From positions 124,001 to 188,000 of the forward strand of contig NZ_JAJFAW010000002.1 in the NCBI RefSeq assembly GCF_020711255.1: 64,000 nucleotides of DNA, read 5' to 3'. This DNA is from Hymenobacter plasmatis (GTDB taxonomy: Bacteria > Bacteroidota > Bacteroidia > Cytophagales > Hymenobacteraceae). Positions 13,079 through 62,201 of this stretch are shown in pieces; within the stretch, counting starts at the first letter, position 1, and each line of letters starts with the position of its first letter. The translations under genes were made by a program, and so were the position numbers. Under the pieces are notes generated by a model that had not been told where the DNA came from, ran no database searches, and was given only the letters and a program-made list of their open reading frames with translations.

Positions 13079-15736
13079 GTGAACCCTGCCTTTAGCCTGC
13101 CGCCACTGCCCGATTTGCCCATCCTCGCGGCGCTGCCTGCCCTGCGCGCCGCCCTGGCTGCGCACAGCCGGGTGGTGCTGGAAGCGCCGCCCGGCGCCGG
13201 CAAAACCACCGTGGTGCCGCTGGAGCTGCTGGCCGCACCCTGGCGCAGTCCGCAGGATAAAATCCTGGTGCTCGAGCCCCGGCAGCTGGCGGTGCGCGGC
13301 GCGGCAGCCCGCCTGGCCCAGCTGCTGGGCGAGCCGGTGGGCCGCACCATTGGCTACCGCGTGCGGCTCGATAGCAAAGTCTCCAAAGAAACCCGCGTGG
13401 AGGTCATCACCGAAGGCATACTGACGCGCATGATTCAGGACGACCCGGCCCTGGAAGGCGTGTCAGCCGTGGTGTTCGATGAATTTCACGAGCGCAGCCT
13501 GAATGCCGATTTGGGGCTGGCGCTGGCGCTGGATGCCCAGGCCGTGCTACGGCCGGAGCTGCGAATTTTAATCATGAGCGCCACGCTGGAGGCGCAACGG
13601 CTGGGCCAGTGGCTGCCCGCGCCGGTGGTGTCGTCGGCGGGCTTTTTGTTTCCGATTGATACCCATTACCTCGACCCACGCCGGGCCTCGGCGCTGCCTA
13701 ACAAGCCCAATGACCGGCTGGCCGAACTGGTACCCGCCCAGGTGCGCGCGGCCCTGCACGCCCATCCCGAAGGCGATATCCTGGTGTTTCTGCCGGGCGT
13801 GGGCGACTTGCAGCGCAGTGCCCGCAAGCTGGCCGATGCCCTGGCCGATACCGTCGACCTGCACCTGCTGCACGGCGAGCTGCCCCTCGAAACCCAGGAC
13901 GCCGCACTGCGCCCGGCCCGCGCGGGGCGCCGCAAGGTCATTCTGGCCACCAGCATTGCCGAAACCAGCCTGACCATCGAAGGCGTGCGGGTGGTGATTG
14001 ACGGGGGCTTTGCCCGGGTGCCGCGCTTTGTGCCGCGCACCGGTTTCACCACCCTCGAAACCGTGCCCGTGGCCCGCGCCGCCGCCGACCAGCGCCGGGG
14101 CCGCGCCGGCCGCCTGGCTCCCGGCACCTGCTACCGCCTCTGGACCGAAGCCGAACACCACAATCTCCCGGCCCACCGTCCGCCCGAAATTCACACCGCC
14201 GACCTCAGTAGCCTGGTACTGGAACTGGCCCTGTGGGGAGCAACCGAGCCCACCAGCCTGCGCTGGCTGGATGTGCCGCCGTCCGCTGCCTTCGCCCAAG
14301 CCAAAGACCTGCTGCTGCGCCTGGGGGCGTTAGATAATGAGGAATCAGGAATGAGGAATGAAGAATTCTCAGGCACTAATTCCTCAATAAGAACAAAGCC
14401 GACTGCACACGGCCGGCAACTGGCGGCACTGGGGCTTCCGCCGCGTTTGGGCCATTTGGTGGTGCGCGGGCAGGAGTTGGGCTATGGAGCCGCCGCGGGG
14501 GCACTGGCTGCATTACTGGCAGAGCGAGACTTGCTGCGTTGGGCCAGCCCCACCGATACGCGCCCCATCCCGCCCGACTTGCGCCTGCGCTTGGAAGCGC
14601 TGGAAAGCGGACGCCCACCCCTGCCGGGGTTGGCCTTGCACCACGCCACGCTGCAGCGCGTGCGCGACGTGGCCCGCAACCTGCAAAGCCGTCAGGGACA
14701 CGACAAAAAAGCTGCGCCCGGTTACTCAGCCGCTCAGGCACCGATTGGGCTGCTCACAGCCCTGGCCTACCCTGACCGCTTGGCCCAACGCGAAACCCAC
14801 GACCGGCTCCGCCTCGTCACGGGCCAGCGCGTAAGCCTGAACACCACCGACGTGGACCCGCAAGCGGAGTTTTTCGCGGTGGCCCACCTGGCCGGCACGG
14901 CCTCGGCGCCCCGGGCTACGCTGGCGGCTCCGCTGGGCCGAGACGAGCTGGAGCTGGCTTTCGCCGACCAGATTACCACCACCGACGAGGTGCGCTACGA
15001 CCCCGCTACCCAACGCGTGACCGGCCGCCGCGTGCGCCGGCTGGGCGCCTTGATGCTCGCCGAAACCGTCATTGGCCAGCCCAACCCCACGCTGGTGGGC
15101 CACGCCCTGCTGGCCTATCTGCAGGAAGCCGGCCTGAGCAAATTGAGCTGGACACCGGAGGCCCGGCAGCTGCAGCAGCGGCTGGAGTTTGTACGCCAGC
15201 ACTTCCCGCCCTCCGATACTACTGCTGAAACAGAAAGGTGGCCAGCCTTCGACGACGAAACGCTGGCGCAAGAACTTTCTACTTGGCTAGGGCCGCACCT
15301 TACGGGCCTCAAAACCCTGACCGACGTGCAGCGGCTCGACCTCACGGAGCCGTTGCTGGCACGCCTGCCCGGCGGCTGGAGCCAGCGCCAAACCCTCGAC
15401 CGTCTCGCCCCCGCCGCGCTGGAAGTCCCCAGCGGCTCGCACATCATCCTCGACTACAGCGACCCCGCCGCGCCCGTACTGGCCGTGAAGCTGCAGGAGC
15501 TGTTTGGCCTGACTGAAACGCCCACGGTGGCCGGCGGGCGGGTGCCGCTGCTCCTGCACTTGCTCTCGCCAGGTGGGCGGCCGGCGCAGGTCACCCGCGA
15601 CTTGCGCAGCTTTTGGGAGAAGGGCTACTTTGAAGTGCGCAAGGATCTGAAAGGCCGCTACCCCAAGCACCCCTGGCCCGATAAGCCCATGGAACACATT
15701 CCAACACGGCTGACGAAGAAGCGGCTGGGTGGGTAG
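13079..15736 (+). CDS. hrpB: ATP-dependent helicase HrpB
   Basis: DEAH-box RNA/DNA helicase of 885 residues, usual for HrpB (~820) plus an insertion. Walker A APPGAGKTT (36-44), DEAH-type box DEFH (135-138), MSATLEAQRL, the motif VI region QRRGRAGRLAPGTCYRLWTE, and the C-terminal HrpB domain ending PKHPWPDKPMEHIPTRLTKK. It starts with GTG at 13079, nine bases after the DUF2071 stop. Residues ~419-439 (NEESGMRNEEFSGTNSSIRT) do not belong to the family: they are encoded by a heptanucleotide repeat array at 14335-14393 that sits in a surface turn between the helicase core and the ratchet region. Confidence 0.94.
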   Translation: MNPAFSLPPLPDLPILAALPALRAALAAHSRVVLEAPPGAGKTTVVPLELLAAPWRSPQDKILVLEPRQLAVRGAAARLAQLLGEPVGRTIGYRVRLDSKVSKETRVEVITEGILTRMIQDDPALEGVSAVVFDEFHERSLNADLGLALALDAQAVLRPELRILIMSATLEAQRLGQWLPAPVVSSAGFLFPIDTHYLDPRRASALPNKPNDRLAELVPAQVRAALHAHPEGDILVFLPGVGDLQRSARKLADALADTVDLHLLHGELPLETQDAALRPARAGRRKVILATSIAETSLTIEGVRVVIDGGFARVPRFVPRTGFTTLETVPVARAAADQRRGRAGRLAPGTCYRLWTEAEHHNLPAHRPPEIHTADLSSLVLELALWGATEPTSLRWLDVPPSAAFAQAKDLLLRLGALDNEESGMRNEEFSGTNSSIRTKPTAHGRQLAALGLPPRLGHLVVRGQELGYGAAAGALAALLAERDLLRWASPTDTRPIPPDLRLRLEALESGRPPLPGLALHHATLQRVRDVARNLQSRQGHDKKAAPGYSAAQAPIGLLTALAYPDRLAQRETHDRLRLVTGQRVSLNTTDVDPQAEFFAVAHLAGTASAPRATLAAPLGRDELELAFADQITTTDEVRYDPATQRVTGRRVRRLGALMLAETVIGQPNPTLVGHALLAYLQEAGLSKLSWTPEARQLQQRLEFVRQHFPPSDTTAETERWPAFDDETLAQELSTWLGPHLTGLKTLTDVQRLDLTEPLLARLPGGWSQRQTLDRLAPAALEVPSGSHIILDYSDPAAPVLAVKLQELFGLTETPTVAGGRVPLLLHLLSPGGRPAQVTRDLRSFWEKGYFEVRKDLKGRYPKHPWPDKPMEHIPTRLTKKRLGG
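14335..14393. repeat. Heptanucleotide repeat inserted in frame in hrpB
   Basis: Units of seven: AATGAGG, AATCAGG, AATGAGG, AATGAAG, AATT, then a short loop and the inverted copy AATTCCTCA (from 14378). Translated as NEESGMRNEEF...TNSS. A copy in the E1 gene (61116-61180) is read in the same phase and orientation. Confidence 0.85.
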
Positions 15737-15753: not shown

Positions 15754-15853
15754 AGAACGTCATGCTGAGCGCAGTCGAAGCATCTCTACTGCGCAACTAA
15801 TTCTATTTAGTATTGCGGTAGAGATGCTTCGACTGCGCTCAGCATGACGTTCT
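15754..15853. repeat. Perfect inverted repeat of the CATGCTGA...GAAGCATC family
   Basis: Arms 15754-15789 and 15818-15853 are exact reverse complements over 36 bases (outer AGAACGTCATGCTGAGCG, inner GAAGCATCTCTAC), with a 28-base AT-rich spacer. It lies between the convergent hrpB and FRG genes and could act as a two-way terminator. Confidence 0.92.
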
Positions 15854-23553: not shown

Positions 23554-23648
23554 GTGTTGGATGTTGAGGGTTGAATGTTGAGCTAATTAGGATTTCATCG
23601 TCCTTCCTTCTGCTCAACACATTCACCCAACATTCAACCCTAACACTC
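23554..23648. repeat. Heptanucleotide palindrome inside the RsbV/RsbW-like operon
   Basis: Left arm units TTGGATG, TTGAGGG, TTGAATG, TTGAGCT (23557-23584). Right arm units ATTCACC, CAACATT, CAACCCT, AACACTC (23621-23648), pairing with the left. It begins four bases after the STAS stop and ends 12 bases before the kinase GTG start. Confidence 0.85.
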
Positions 23649-23660
23649 AAAACTTTCGAA

Positions 23661-24074
23661 GTGAAATCTGCGCTCCGCATTGCTTGTTCCCGCAGCCACC
23701 TCCAGCAGGTGCGGGACTTCGTGCGGAATTACCTCAGCAGCCGGCAGCTGCCCGAAATCACGGTCAACCAAGTGGTGCTGGCCGTAGACGAGGTAGTGGC
23801 CAATTTCATTATCCACGCCAACGGCGAAGACGAGACCCAGTTTCTGGACCTCAAGCTGCAGCTCGATGACCACGAGCTGAACGTGGAAATTGCCGACAAC
23901 GGCGACACCATCTTCCTGCCCGCGCCCCACCAAAGCCCCGACTTGCGCGACTTCATTCGCCAGGGCCGTAAGGGCGGCATGGGCATGACGCTTGTGAACC
24001 GGCTCATGGACAAAGTCGAGTTCTTTACCCGCGGCAATCACACCGTCTGCCACCTAAGCAAGCACCTGGCCTAA
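23661..24074 (+). CDS. RsbW-like serine kinase (HATPase_c, anti-sigma type)
   Basis: A 137-residue GHKL ATPase: N-box VDEVVANFIIHAN with Asn48, G1 box VEIADNG (Asp79), G2 box GGMGMTLV (105-112). The family phosphorylates STAS antagonists and sequesters a target, classically a sigma factor. I choose GTG 23661 because the in-frame extension to 23571 is translated repeat sequence and family members start just before the RIACSRSHLQQVRDF-type helix. No sigma-factor gene is adjacent, so the output target is unknown. Terminator at 24103. Confidence 0.88.
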   Translation: MKSALRIACSRSHLQQVRDFVRNYLSSRQLPEITVNQVVLAVDEVVANFIIHANGEDETQFLDLKLQLDDHELNVEIADNGDTIFLPAPHQSPDLRDFIRQGRKGGMGMTLVNRLMDKVEFFTRGNHTVCHLSKHLA

Positions 24075-50659: not shown

Positions 50660-50728
50660 GTGACGAATGAGGAAGGCAGAATGACGGAGCGGAACTCTTC
50701 ATTCCCCATTCGTCATTCCTCATTGCTA
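50660..50728. repeat. Heptanucleotide palindrome before gcvP
   Basis: Left units GAATGAG, GAAGGCA, GAATGAC (50665-50685). Right units CATTCCC, CATTCGT, CATTCCT, CATTGCT (50700-50727). The arms pair (GAATGAGGAA-type against TTCCTCATTC-type). It lies between divergent starts. Confidence 0.85.
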
Positions 50729-50786
50729 ATGGGGTGGCCGGTCAAAATTACGGTTTTGATGGCAGTCCGCCGGGCCATTTCGAGCT

Positions 50787-50794
50787 TACCTTTG
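50787..50794 (+). promoter_or_regulatory. -7 promoter element of gcvP
   Basis: TACCTTTG, perfect TAnnTTTG, 65 bases before the ATG at 50860. The remaining leader is too short for a glycine riboswitch. Confidence 0.65.
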
Positions 50795-50859
50795 TTAAGG
50801 AATCTGAACCTGAACCTTACTACGTCAAAACCGCTTCCTTCTCACTATTTCCCGCCTTT

Positions 50860-53778
<2,919 letters not shown>

Positions 53779-55228: not shown

Positions 55229-56122
55229 CTAAACCGGTACGTTCACGTGGCGCTCGGCGTGGTAGGAACTACGCACCAGCGGGCCGCTTTCCACGTATTT
55301 CAGGCCGCGCTTCAGGCCTTCTTCTTTGTAGTGGGCAAACTGGTCGGGGGTGATGAACTCGGCCACGTCCAGGTGACGCTTGGTGGGCTGCAGGTATTGG
55401 CCCAGGGTCAGGATGTCGAGGCCATTGGCCACGAGGTCGTCCATGGCCTGGTACAGTTCATCGGCCTTCTCGCCCAGGCCCAGCATGATGCCTGACTTGG
55501 TGCGGTGGCCGGCCAGCTTCGTGCGGCGGATTTGCTCCAGGCTGCGGTCGTAGCGGGCCTGGGGGCGCACGAGGCGGTAGAGGCTGCCCACGGTTTCGAT
55601 GTTGTGCGAAATCACTTCCTGGCCGCCCGAAATCATCACGTCGAGGGCATCCCAGTTGGCTTTCACGTCCGGAATCAGGGTTTCGATGGTGGTGCCGGGG
55701 CTGAGCTGCTTGGTGAGCACCACGGTTTCGCGCCACACGCTGGCGCCGCGGTCCTTCAGTTCGTCGCGGTTCACGCTAGTAATCACGGCGTGCTTCACTT
55801 TCATGAGCTTGATGGCCTCGGCCACGCGGCGGGGCTCGTCGAGGTCGTATTCGGTGGGGCGGCCCGTGGCCACGGCGCAAAACGAGCACGAGCGGGTACA
55901 GATGTTGCCCAGAATCATGAACGTGGCCGTGCCGGCGCCCCAGCATTCGCCCATGTTGGGGCAGTTGCCGCTCTCGCAAATGGTGTGCAGCTTGTGCTCG
56001 TCTACCAGGCGGCGCACGGCGGCGTATTCTTCGCCCACAGGCAGCTTCACGCGCAGCCAATCGGGCTTGCGGGGGCGGGCAGGCGCAGCCGTTTCGGGCT
56101 GGATAACGGGCAAATCAATCAT
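55229..56122 (-). CDS. lipA: Lipoyl synthase
   Basis: Radical SAM enzyme that inserts two sulfurs into octanoyl-lipoyl domains; needed for the glycine cleavage H protein and 2-oxoacid dehydrogenase E2 proteins. 297 residues. Auxiliary cluster cysteines 49, 54 and 60 ([15 protein letters not shown]), radical SAM cysteines 75, 79 and 82 (CTRSCSFC), and the C-terminal VRSSYHAE serine ligand of the auxiliary cluster. ATG 56122. Its leader holds a heptanucleotide palindrome behind a perfect -7 element. gcvP and the E1 fusion lie within 7 kb on either side. Confidence 0.97.
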
Positions 56123-56127
56123 TTTAT

Positions 56128-56277
56128 TAATGAAGAAGGAGGAATGAAGAAGGAGGAATTATCCTCGGCCCATTCGATACTAAGCACTAACAAATTTACG
56201 GTGCAATTGATGCGCCTTGTATATCCGGGGATGGCCCAGCCCAATTCTTCACTCCTAATTCTCCACTCTTCCTCAAG
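56128..56277. repeat. Heptanucleotide palindrome in the lipA leader region
   Basis: Left units AATGAAG, AAGGAGG, AATGAAG, AAGGAGG (56129-56156). Right units AATTCTT, CACTCCT, AATTCTC, CACTCTT, CCTCAAG (56243-56277). The arms are inverted copies about 80 bases apart, and the lipA promoter lies between them. Confidence 0.85.
56191..56198 (-). promoter_or_regulatory. -7 promoter element of lipA
   Basis: TAAATTTG on the minus strand, 68 bases before the ATG, inside the loop of the palindrome. The leader RNA would contain only the left arm. Confidence 0.6.
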
Positions 56278-60149: not shown

Positions 60150-62201
60150 TTAGTAGCTGCGCAGGGCCTCTACTTGCTCGCGCAGCCGCTGCAGCGGCAG
60201 AAACGCCGCCTCGAGCGGGGGCGCAAACGGAATGGCGGTATCGAGCGAGGCCACGCGGCGCACCGGCGCGTCGAGGTGCTCAAAGCAGTTTTCGCCAATC
60301 CAGGCCGCGATTTCGCCGCCGATGCCGCCGGTCAGGGTGTCTTCGTGCAGCACCAGCACGCGGCCGTTTTTCTCTACGGTTTGGCGCACGGCCTCCTGGT
60401 CCCAGGGCAGCAGAGTGCGCAGGTCGAGGATATCGGCCGATACGTTGAGCTCTTCGCACACCTGCAGAGCCCAGCGCACGCCCATGCCGTAGGTAATGAT
60501 GCTCAATTCGTTGCCTTCGGCGGCCAGCGCGGCCTTGCCGATGGGCGTGGTGTAGTAGGCCTCGGGCACGGGGCCGGAGAGGCTGCGGTAGAGCATCTTG
60601 TGCTCGAAGTACATCACCGGGTTGGGGTCTTCGAAAGCGGCGCAGAGCAGGCCCTTGGCGTCGTGCGGGTTGCTAGGGTACACCACCTTCAGGCCGGGCA
60701 CGTGCGTAAACCACGCCTCGTTGCTCTGGCTGTGGAAGGGGCCGGCGGCGCTGCCGGCGCCGGTGGGCATGCGCACCACCACGTCGGCGTTTTGGCCCCA
60801 GCGGTAGTGGCTTTTGGCGAGGTTGTTTACAATCTGGTTGAAGCCACAGGTCACGAAGTCGGCAAACTGCATTTCCACCATGCTTTTCTTGCCCTTGATG
60901 CTCAGGCCCAGCCCTGCGCCCACAATGGCCGACTCGCACAAGGGCGTGTTGCGCACCCGCGCCTTGCCAAACTCGGCCACGAAGCCTTCGGTTATCTTGA
61001 AGACGCCGCCGTAGTCGGCAATGTCCTGACCCATCAGCACGAGGTCGGGGTAGCGCTGCATGCTCTGGCGCAGCCCCTCCTGAATGGCATCGACAAAGCG
61101 CAGCTCCCTTGTGGGTAATGAGGAATTATTGGGGGAGTCGTTTTTCAATTCCTCATTCTTCATTCTTAATTCTTCATTAAGCGAAGCGTCCGGCGTGAAG
61201 GGCTGGTACATGTCGGCGATTTCCTCCTGCACGTCGGCGGTGGGCATTGGCACGGCATCGGCTTCCTGCAAGCCGGCTTCGATAGCCGCCTTGATGGTTT
61301 CGCGGATGTTGTGCTTGGCCGTTTCCGTGAGGATGCCTTCCTGGATAAGCCACTTCTCGTAGTTTTCCACCGGGTCTTTGGCAGCCCACTCTTCCATCAG
61401 GGACTGGGGCACGTACTTGGTGCCGCTGGCTTCTTCGTGGCCGCGCATCCGGAAGGTGAGGGCTTCGATGAGCACGGGGCGCGGGTTTTGGCGCAGGTCC
61501 TCGGCCAGGCGCTTCACGGTGCTGTACACTTCCAGCACGTTGTTGCCGTCTACCTGCACGGCGTCCATGCCGTAGGCCGGGCCTTTGTCGACGAACGACT
61601 TAAAGCGAAACTGCTCGTTGCTGGGCGTGCTCAGGCCGTAGCCGTTGTTTTCAATCATGAAGATGACCGGCAGCTGCCACACAGCGGCCACGTTCAGGGC
61701 CTCGTGGAAGTCGCCTTCGCTGGCGCCGCCGTCGCCGCTGTAGGTCAGGGTCACTTTGGGCTTTTGGTCGAGCACGTCGGCCAGGGCAATGCCATCGGCT
61801 ACGGCCAGTTGCGGGCCCAGGTGCGAAATCATGCCCACGATGTGGTGCTCGTTGCTGCCGAAGTGGAAGCTGCGGTCGCGGCCCTTGGTGAAGCCCGTGC
61901 GCTTGCCCTGCCACTGCGCAAACAGGCGCCCCAGCGGCACATTGCGCCCCGTAAATACGCCCAAGTTGCGGTGCAGCGGCAGAATGTACTCGTCAGGCTC
62001 CAGCGCCAGCGTGCTGCCCACCGAGATGGCTTCCTGCCCAATGCCCGAGAACCACTTGCTCACCTTGCCCTGGCGCAGCAGAATCAGCATTTTTTCCTCA
62101 ATCAGCCGCGGGCGCAGCAGGTGCTGGTAGAGGTGCAGCAGGGTTTCGTTGGAATGGTCGAGGCGGTCGAACCGGAGCGCCGTGGCAGCGAGGGTCATCA
62201 T
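60150..62201 (-). CDS. 2-oxoacid dehydrogenase E1, alpha and beta subunits fused
   Basis: A 683-residue single-chain E1 of the branched-chain or pyruvate dehydrogenase type; thiamine-diphosphate enzyme that decarboxylates a 2-oxoacid and acylates a lipoyl E2. Alpha half ~1-335: EKMLILLRQGKVSKWFSGIG, thiamine-PP motif SGDGGASEGDF (155-165) to NNGYG. Beta half ~366-683: LVLMGQDIADYGGVFKITEG, VEMQFADFVTCGFNQIVNNL, GGIGGEIAAWI. Fused E1 is usual in Bacteroidota. The junction, residues ~341-365 (NEELRMKNEELKNDSPNNSS), is encoded by a heptanucleotide array (61116-61180). The substrate is not decidable from sequence. Divergent promoter shared with 62292. Confidence 0.93.
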   Translation of the reverse strand: MMTLAATALRFDRLDHSNETLLHLYQHLLRPRLIEEKMLILLRQGKVSKWFSGIGQEAISVGSTLALEPDEYILPLHRNLGVFTGRNVPLGRLFAQWQGKRTGFTKGRDRSFHFGSNEHHIVGMISHLGPQLAVADGIALADVLDQKPKVTLTYSGDGGASEGDFHEALNVAAVWQLPVIFMIENNGYGLSTPSNEQFRFKSFVDKGPAYGMDAVQVDGNNVLEVYSTVKRLAEDLRQNPRPVLIEALTFRMRGHEEASGTKYVPQSLMEEWAAKDPVENYEKWLIQEGILTETAKHNIRETIKAAIEAGLQEADAVPMPTADVQEEIADMYQPFTPDASLNEELRMKNEELKNDSPNNSSLPTRELRFVDAIQEGLRQSMQRYPDLVLMGQDIADYGGVFKITEGFVAEFGKARVRNTPLCESAIVGAGLGLSIKGKKSMVEMQFADFVTCGFNQIVNNLAKSHYRWGQNADVVVRMPTGAGSAAGPFHSQSNEAWFTHVPGLKVVYPSNPHDAKGLLCAAFEDPNPVMYFEHKMLYRSLSGPVPEAYYTTPIGKAALAAEGNELSIITYGMGVRWALQVCEELNVSADILDLRTLLPWDQEAVRQTVEKNGRVLVLHEDTLTGGIGGEIAAWIGENCFEHLDAPVRRVASLDTAIPFAPPLEAAFLPLQRLREQVEALRSY
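61116..61180. repeat. Heptanucleotide array at the alpha-beta junction of E1
   Basis: On the plus strand: left AATGAGGAATT (61117-61127), right AATTCCT, CATTCTT, CATTCTT, AATTCTT, CATTAA (from 61147). The 11-base ends pair perfectly. On the coding strand it reads AATGAAG, AATTAAG, AATGAAG, AATGAGG, AATT, then the loop, in the same phase as the hrpB copy. Confidence 0.88.

Follow-up and report, generated by a model that had tools for sequence, protein, structure and literature searches.

In-frame hairpin repeats in hrpB and other genes of Hymenobacter: an inherited site with stem sequences that differ between species

The hrpB gene of Hymenobacter plasmatis carries in frame a 60-bp hairpin-repeat insert, which is read here, with a probability of about 0.6, as a copy of a dispersed, non-autonomous family of palindromic repeats that is tolerated in loops and linkers and whose stems have been rewritten later. 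The repeats are dispersed through the genome, their hairpins have one polarity, the two arms of an element covary, copies are retained in frame within genes, and at the hrpB codon the presence of an insert is inherited and its content has no tree signal. An element would consist of a short core flanked by two stem arms, each built of short, degenerate tandem units (AATGARG in this case), and such hairpins would be copied around the genome, surviving within genes only in loops or linkers and in a frame free of stops. An occupied site would then be inherited, with its stem sequence continuing to be rewritten in both arms together and the new unit usually being one common in that genome. The rewriting may proceed by template switching between arms, unit slippage, exchange with other copies, or re-insertion.

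Within the window (the whole stretch of 64,000 nucleotides that was analysed), hrpB occupies positions 13079–15736 on the forward strand and encodes the ATP-dependent RNA helicase HrpB (885 aa; Pfam DEAD, Helicase_C and HrpB_C), whose sequence matches the structures 6eud and 6heg with an E value of about 1e-166. The insert, its ends set by conserved flanks in orthologs, spans 14336–14395 (+) and encodes residues 420–439, NEESGMRNEEFSGTNSSIRT. An earlier reading, made from the sequence alone, had placed the array at 14335–14393, one or two bases off, and had correctly described it as lying in frame in a gene that is open throughout. The insert is composed of a 5' arm of 33 bases of degenerate AATGARG-type heptads (14336–14368, +, identified by TRF, pattern match and the sequence) and, beyond a short spacer, an opposite arm of ten bases, TAATTCCTCA (14377–14386, +, from sequence and folding). 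TRF reports 4.4 copies of period 7 at 14336–14366 (score 48), and the degenerate pattern AATGARGAATGARGAATGA, with up to 3 mismatches allowed, matches the window 13 times, including three matches in the hrpB array, where 0.02 are expected from dinucleotide shuffles. The lag-7 score of the insert (13/14) is reached by none of 200 of its own shuffles and its arm score is equalled in 1 of 200, with a folding z of -4.0. The hairpin is nevertheless asymmetric, as the right arms of seven other species fit its left arm no worse than its own right arm does. Repeats of AATGARG without any departure would bring stops into each of the three sense frames; in this insert the two TGA positions that fall in frame read TCA and TTC instead, so the gene is not open by luck. 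Directly past the hrpB stop, at 15755–15852, lies a near-perfect long inverted repeat, GAACGTCATGCTGAGCGCAGTCGAAGCATCTC..., which is a palindrome of another kind.

An AlphaFold model of the window HrpB, built with an alignment of 28 HrpB sequences (mean pLDDT 80.6, pTM 0.54), predicts that residues 420–439 are a low-confidence loop joining two short strands (418–420 and 439–441), with pLDDT below 50 at 425–435. The proposed position at a turn between the helicase core and the downstream domain is therefore roughly right. The solved structure 6eud, of the E. coli HrpB, has only the short LEGERLSAQG at the position of the insert.

After removal of duplicates, 34 ortholog rows have 48–153 bp at this hrpB codon, all of them from Hymenobacter or Hymenobacteraceae, and 30 rows, seven of these outside Hymenobacter, have 6–18 bp, so that orthologs without the insert of about 20 residues do exist, as the sequence-only reading had anticipated. 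In a HrpB tree built without the insert, and leaving out one row (L038), all 34 insert-bearing rows fall inside one group of 38 rows (SH-aLRT 98, by a quick method), and 18 Hymenobacter rows outside this clade have 9 bp at the codon. L038, the hrpB of G010, matches in several frames and is either a pseudogene or the product of a low-quality assembly. The clade contains four empty rows (H. arizonensis, H. jeongseonensis, H. armeniacus and strain BT559), and the insert is thus dispensable. Its presence changes 5 times on the tree, as against a mean of 17.7 and a minimum of 12 in 500 shuffles; presence follows the tree, that is, it is inherited. With 34 of 38 clade rows occupied and 5 changes, the hrpB site is not a fresh insertion, and it is mostly the repeat content that varies rather than the presence. 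The two rows nearest the window species on the tree are empty, so keeping the insert and losing it before a second insertion come out equally parsimonious for this species. Every one of the 34 inserts has a length divisible by three and no stop in the reading frame of the gene; of the other two sense frames, one is open in just 3 inserts and the other in 2.

Related species carry different 7-, 8- or 9-mers at the same codon, among them AATGAGG, AGTGAAC, AGTTAAG, the 8-mers GGGTAAGG and GGGGCTTG and the 9-mer AATGGGAGT, and no sequence is common to all inserts. Among the 20 rows that could be typed by hand, into 7 types, the repeat type changes 13 times on the tree against a shuffled mean of 13.4, and hence does not follow the tree. 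Arm complementarity exceeds that of the insert's own shuffles (p<=0.01) in 21 of 33 inserts, with no arm pairing at this threshold in the remaining 12; likewise, the folding z relative to shuffles falls below -2 in 21 of 33. In 14 of 33, the insert's own opposite arm is a better match than the arm of any other species. Self-match at period 7 is significant in only 12 of 33, and the others have units of 8 or 9 bases, have none, or look decayed.

The window genome (G000, 5.13 Mb) contains 199 matches to the AATGARG pattern, dispersed throughout, compared with none in the control. Among the matches listed, these form at least 39 clusters at 0–1 mismatch, at least 30 of them with both arms, and in 30 of 30 paired elements every AATGARG match precedes every CYTCATT match, giving a single polarity. 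Nineteen of the listed elements could be anchored at their inner AATT tetramers. Their left arms show 27 departures from the unit, 13 of which reappear on the opposite side of the element concerned, where 2.7 are expected when loci are permuted; the 13 are spread over 8 elements, with six of them in two elements. A core, AATTGGTCGTTGGGCTAATTC, present here in 12 copies, is missing from all of 36 congeners and from the control, which shows that copies spread within the lineage. These places have different flanks and often different arms (10 rows representing 9 places, two rows being the same place), and near-identical cores are found with different arms, some of which are fully self-complementary; the core is thus common to 12 copies, and the stems differ between loci as well as between species. 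Within the window, an AATGARG-type hairpin supported by pattern and fold (50660–50735) lies upstream of the ORF at 50734–53778, which reads as glycine dehydrogenase-like, and AATGARG-type arms around a spacer of about 80 bp (56129–56270) lie upstream of the ORF at 55229–56122 (-), which reads as lipoyl synthase-like, both named by reading the sequence. Another hairpin, at 23554–23650, is made of heptads of a different type (GTTGAATGTTGAGG / CTCAACATTCAACCC) and overlaps the start of the ORF at 23571–24074. No Rfam family was found in the 64-kb window at the gathering threshold.

AATGARG hairpins also lie in frame in five further genes, encoding a fused E1 dehydrogenase, PBP1C, an EgtB-like protein, a glycosyltransferase-deacetylase fusion and an alpha/beta hydrolase; in-frame comparison with orthologs covered hrpB, E1, PBP1C and the EgtB-like gene. 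The second in-gene hairpin of the window (61115–61178, -), NEELRMKNEELKNDSPNNSSL, is in the linker of the E1 dehydrogenase (60150–62201, -) between Pfam E1_dh (32–322) and Transket_pyr (369–539). This linker was compared in 30 of the 36 genomes searched, measuring 39–138 bp in 22 Hymenobacter loci and 33–36 bp in eight from the outgroup, and G011, a genome rich in AATGARG, has an E1 linker without such a repeat. The EgtB-like protein has its copy at residues 183–207, between DinB_2 and FGE-sulfatase, the glycosyltransferase at residues 191–216, between its two lobes, and PBP1C at residues 477–510, within the transpeptidase domain. AATGARG repeats occupy this one PBP1C loop in six genomes, and in other genomes it holds unrelated palindromes (G002, G007 and G013; G009 and G016), repeats of other kinds, or a short linker of 36 bp or more. 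The palindrome filling it in G007, G013 and G002 (L238, L245 and L251) is GC-rich and encodes APHPP...PGE.... In the pbpC of G029 (L252 / L255), a 113-bp AATGARG insert offers a natural example of a length that does not fit: it is not divisible by three, and in the assembly it disrupts the reading frame. At least one of six frames is open in 13 of 29 elements outside assigned genes, so an open frame alone is no proof of coding; the spanning open frames L198, L199, L209 and L216 were left out of the gene count, and a Pfam search of L198, L209 and L216 gave no match. The earlier claim that the arrays move or expand into coding DNA is upheld in so far as the repeats are dispersed, copied within the genome and in frame in these five other genes, but not as stated for the hrpB site, which as a site is no fresh insertion. 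The interpretation made from the sequence alone is in this sense partly supported.

The abundance of repeat units differs between genomes, with 445 AATGARG matches in G019, 430 in G011 and 199 in G000. The three hrpB inserts of AATGARG type sit in the three genomes with the highest AATGARG counts among the 19 insert-bearing genomes (1/969), in a rank test that keeps the relatedness of the genomes in and whose matches are overlapping positions, including the hrpB insert itself, rather than elements. Rank tests of the same kind for two other patterns gave 1/19 and 23/969; for the third pattern, one of the three matching genomes comes no higher than 9th among the 19, and a single long array supplies most of the G022 count for one pattern. 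In most cases, then, an insert matching one of the three tested patterns is of a unit that its own genome has in abundance. A long tandem array of the 14-base unit AACAGTGAGCAGTT lies in G022 at C217:62679-63132, with more than 30 matches spaced 14 bases apart. When 100-kb samples were surveyed for lag-7 arrays, none was listed for G012, G024 and G033, so array abundance varies widely. Two G016 rows of this survey are runs of N; in L188 (14096–14465 and 15570–15904) the N runs are flanked by CTCAA and TGAGC and are perhaps assembly gaps at hairpin repeats.

No mobilising enzyme was found for the AATGARG hairpins. A RAYT/Y1 transposase was considered as the mover and rejected, as Y1_Tnp is present in 19 of 22 genomes searched and is unrelated to AATGARG abundance (1 match each in G019 and G011, 3 in G000 and 9 in G029), and of 12 Y1 genes inspected, only 2 have lag-7 arrays nearby, these being arrays of other units. 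Target-site duplications, which would go with a MITE and which the sequence-only reading had advised looking for at the edges of the array, were not recognised by eye at the 9 places sharing the AATTGGTCGTTGGGCTAATTC core. An outer AAGCGAAGCG is present at 10 of 78 element ends, against a background of 0.1%, with the element ends themselves not defined; it was rejected as an element end since, for all its enrichment, it is found at only these 10. It could instead be a target, because similar bases in E1 encode PDASL, which is common to relatives without AATGARG repeats.

The nearest precedents are the Rickettsia palindromic elements (RPE) and the heptads of the Nostoc P6b stem-loop. RPE and palindromes of REP/ERIC type are reported to be dispersed, to lie in frame in unrelated genes and to be translated (PMC10969869, PMC3733652), and CGTC/GTAG end tags are a feature described for intragenic REP/ERIC-type palindromes. 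The Hymenobacter inserts resemble RPE in being palindromes at many loci of one genome, open in frame in conserved genes. However, each RPE is described as encoding a conserved peptide, whereas the Hymenobacter stem is a tandem array with a unit that differs between species at one inherited site. In the P6b stem-loop of the Nostoc tRNA-Leu(UAA) intron, two heptanucleotide classes are described (Class I TDNGATT and Class II NNTGAGT), and one motif is reported to have replaced the other repeatedly in separate lineages (PMC4476775). The likeness lies in 7-nt repeats on both sides of a stem at a fixed site with motif replacement, although in hrpB some units are of 8 or 9 nt and the 12 inserts without significant pairing also depart from it. 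The hrpB repeat is not in a tRNA-Leu group I intron; P6b is described as part of a self-splicing intron with two motifs, whereas in Hymenobacter many motifs (7-, 8- and 9-mers) occupy protein-coding loops, with copies genome-wide. Heptameric repeats, including TAACTGA in Beggiatoaceae, cyanobacteria and Bacteroidetes and GGGAATC in Xanthomonas and Nostoc, are reported, together with long simple sequence repeats, as an over-represented class with genome-wide spread (PMC4679880, PMC4692102). Those are described as mainly direct and mostly intergenic, whereas the Hymenobacter arrays form paired inverted arms and include genes. Template switching (quasipalindrome correction) is reported to create and keep matched arms through reverse-complement copying (PMC8794818), and would account for the symmetry of the arms but not for the dispersal or the genome-wide sharing of units. 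A search of the open-access literature, with subscription journals mostly outside its scope, found no published description of the Hymenobacter inserts.

A serious if tentative rival is recurrent independent insertion, by which the hrpB loop would be a tolerant hot spot that loses its old hairpins by deletion and gains new ones from whichever family is active, with no rewriting in place; the differences in content may then be separate insertions. The four empty clade members and the empty rows nearest the window species are compatible with such turnover, but the few changes of presence on the tree argue against it. The unrelated palindromes at one PBP1C loop and a repeat type that lacks tree signal and tends to match the genome pool would also follow from fresh insertions; however, the hrpB inserts of G023 and G009 keep an alignable spacer with arms that differ, though partly alignable (compared by eye), and the near-identical cores of the window genome carry different, sometimes fully self-complementary arms. 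A stronger form of the preferred reading, that of a rewritten repeat family, is rather speculative. It would make the hairpin sites vertically inherited landing pads, with stems periodically overwritten, both arms at once, by the unit then prevailing in the genome, so that short translated linkers would be rewritten in concert across the genome by a dedicated, as yet undescribed copying activity.

That the stem is useful as RNA or DNA, through pausing or mRNA stability, and that its pairing is kept by selection, is very improbable: the arms covary within loci and 21 of 33 inserts fold significantly, but four clade members have lost the insert, 12 lack significant pairing, the same hairpins occur in unrelated genes and between genes, and template switching alone can reportedly create and keep stems (PMC8794818). 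No more credible is an ordinary low-complexity protein linker, variable by slippage and selected at the protein level with incidental DNA symmetry. The insert is predicted to lie in a low-confidence loop, and length variation is general in the E1, PBP1C and EgtB linkers, but the symmetry belongs to the DNA and is present outside genes too, and the AATGARG unit and its polarity recur at dozens of loci.

The hrpB orthologs form a natural series of 34 rows at one codon with fixed boundaries, where different rules govern the evolution of a hairpin's presence and that of its sequence. This series allows the spread of short palindromic repeats and the matching of their arms to be tested. The findings also suggest that stretches like NEELRMKNEEL, found in annotated Hymenobacter proteins, derive from the translation of repeat DNA, and they show a recurring route from DNA repeats to protein loops.
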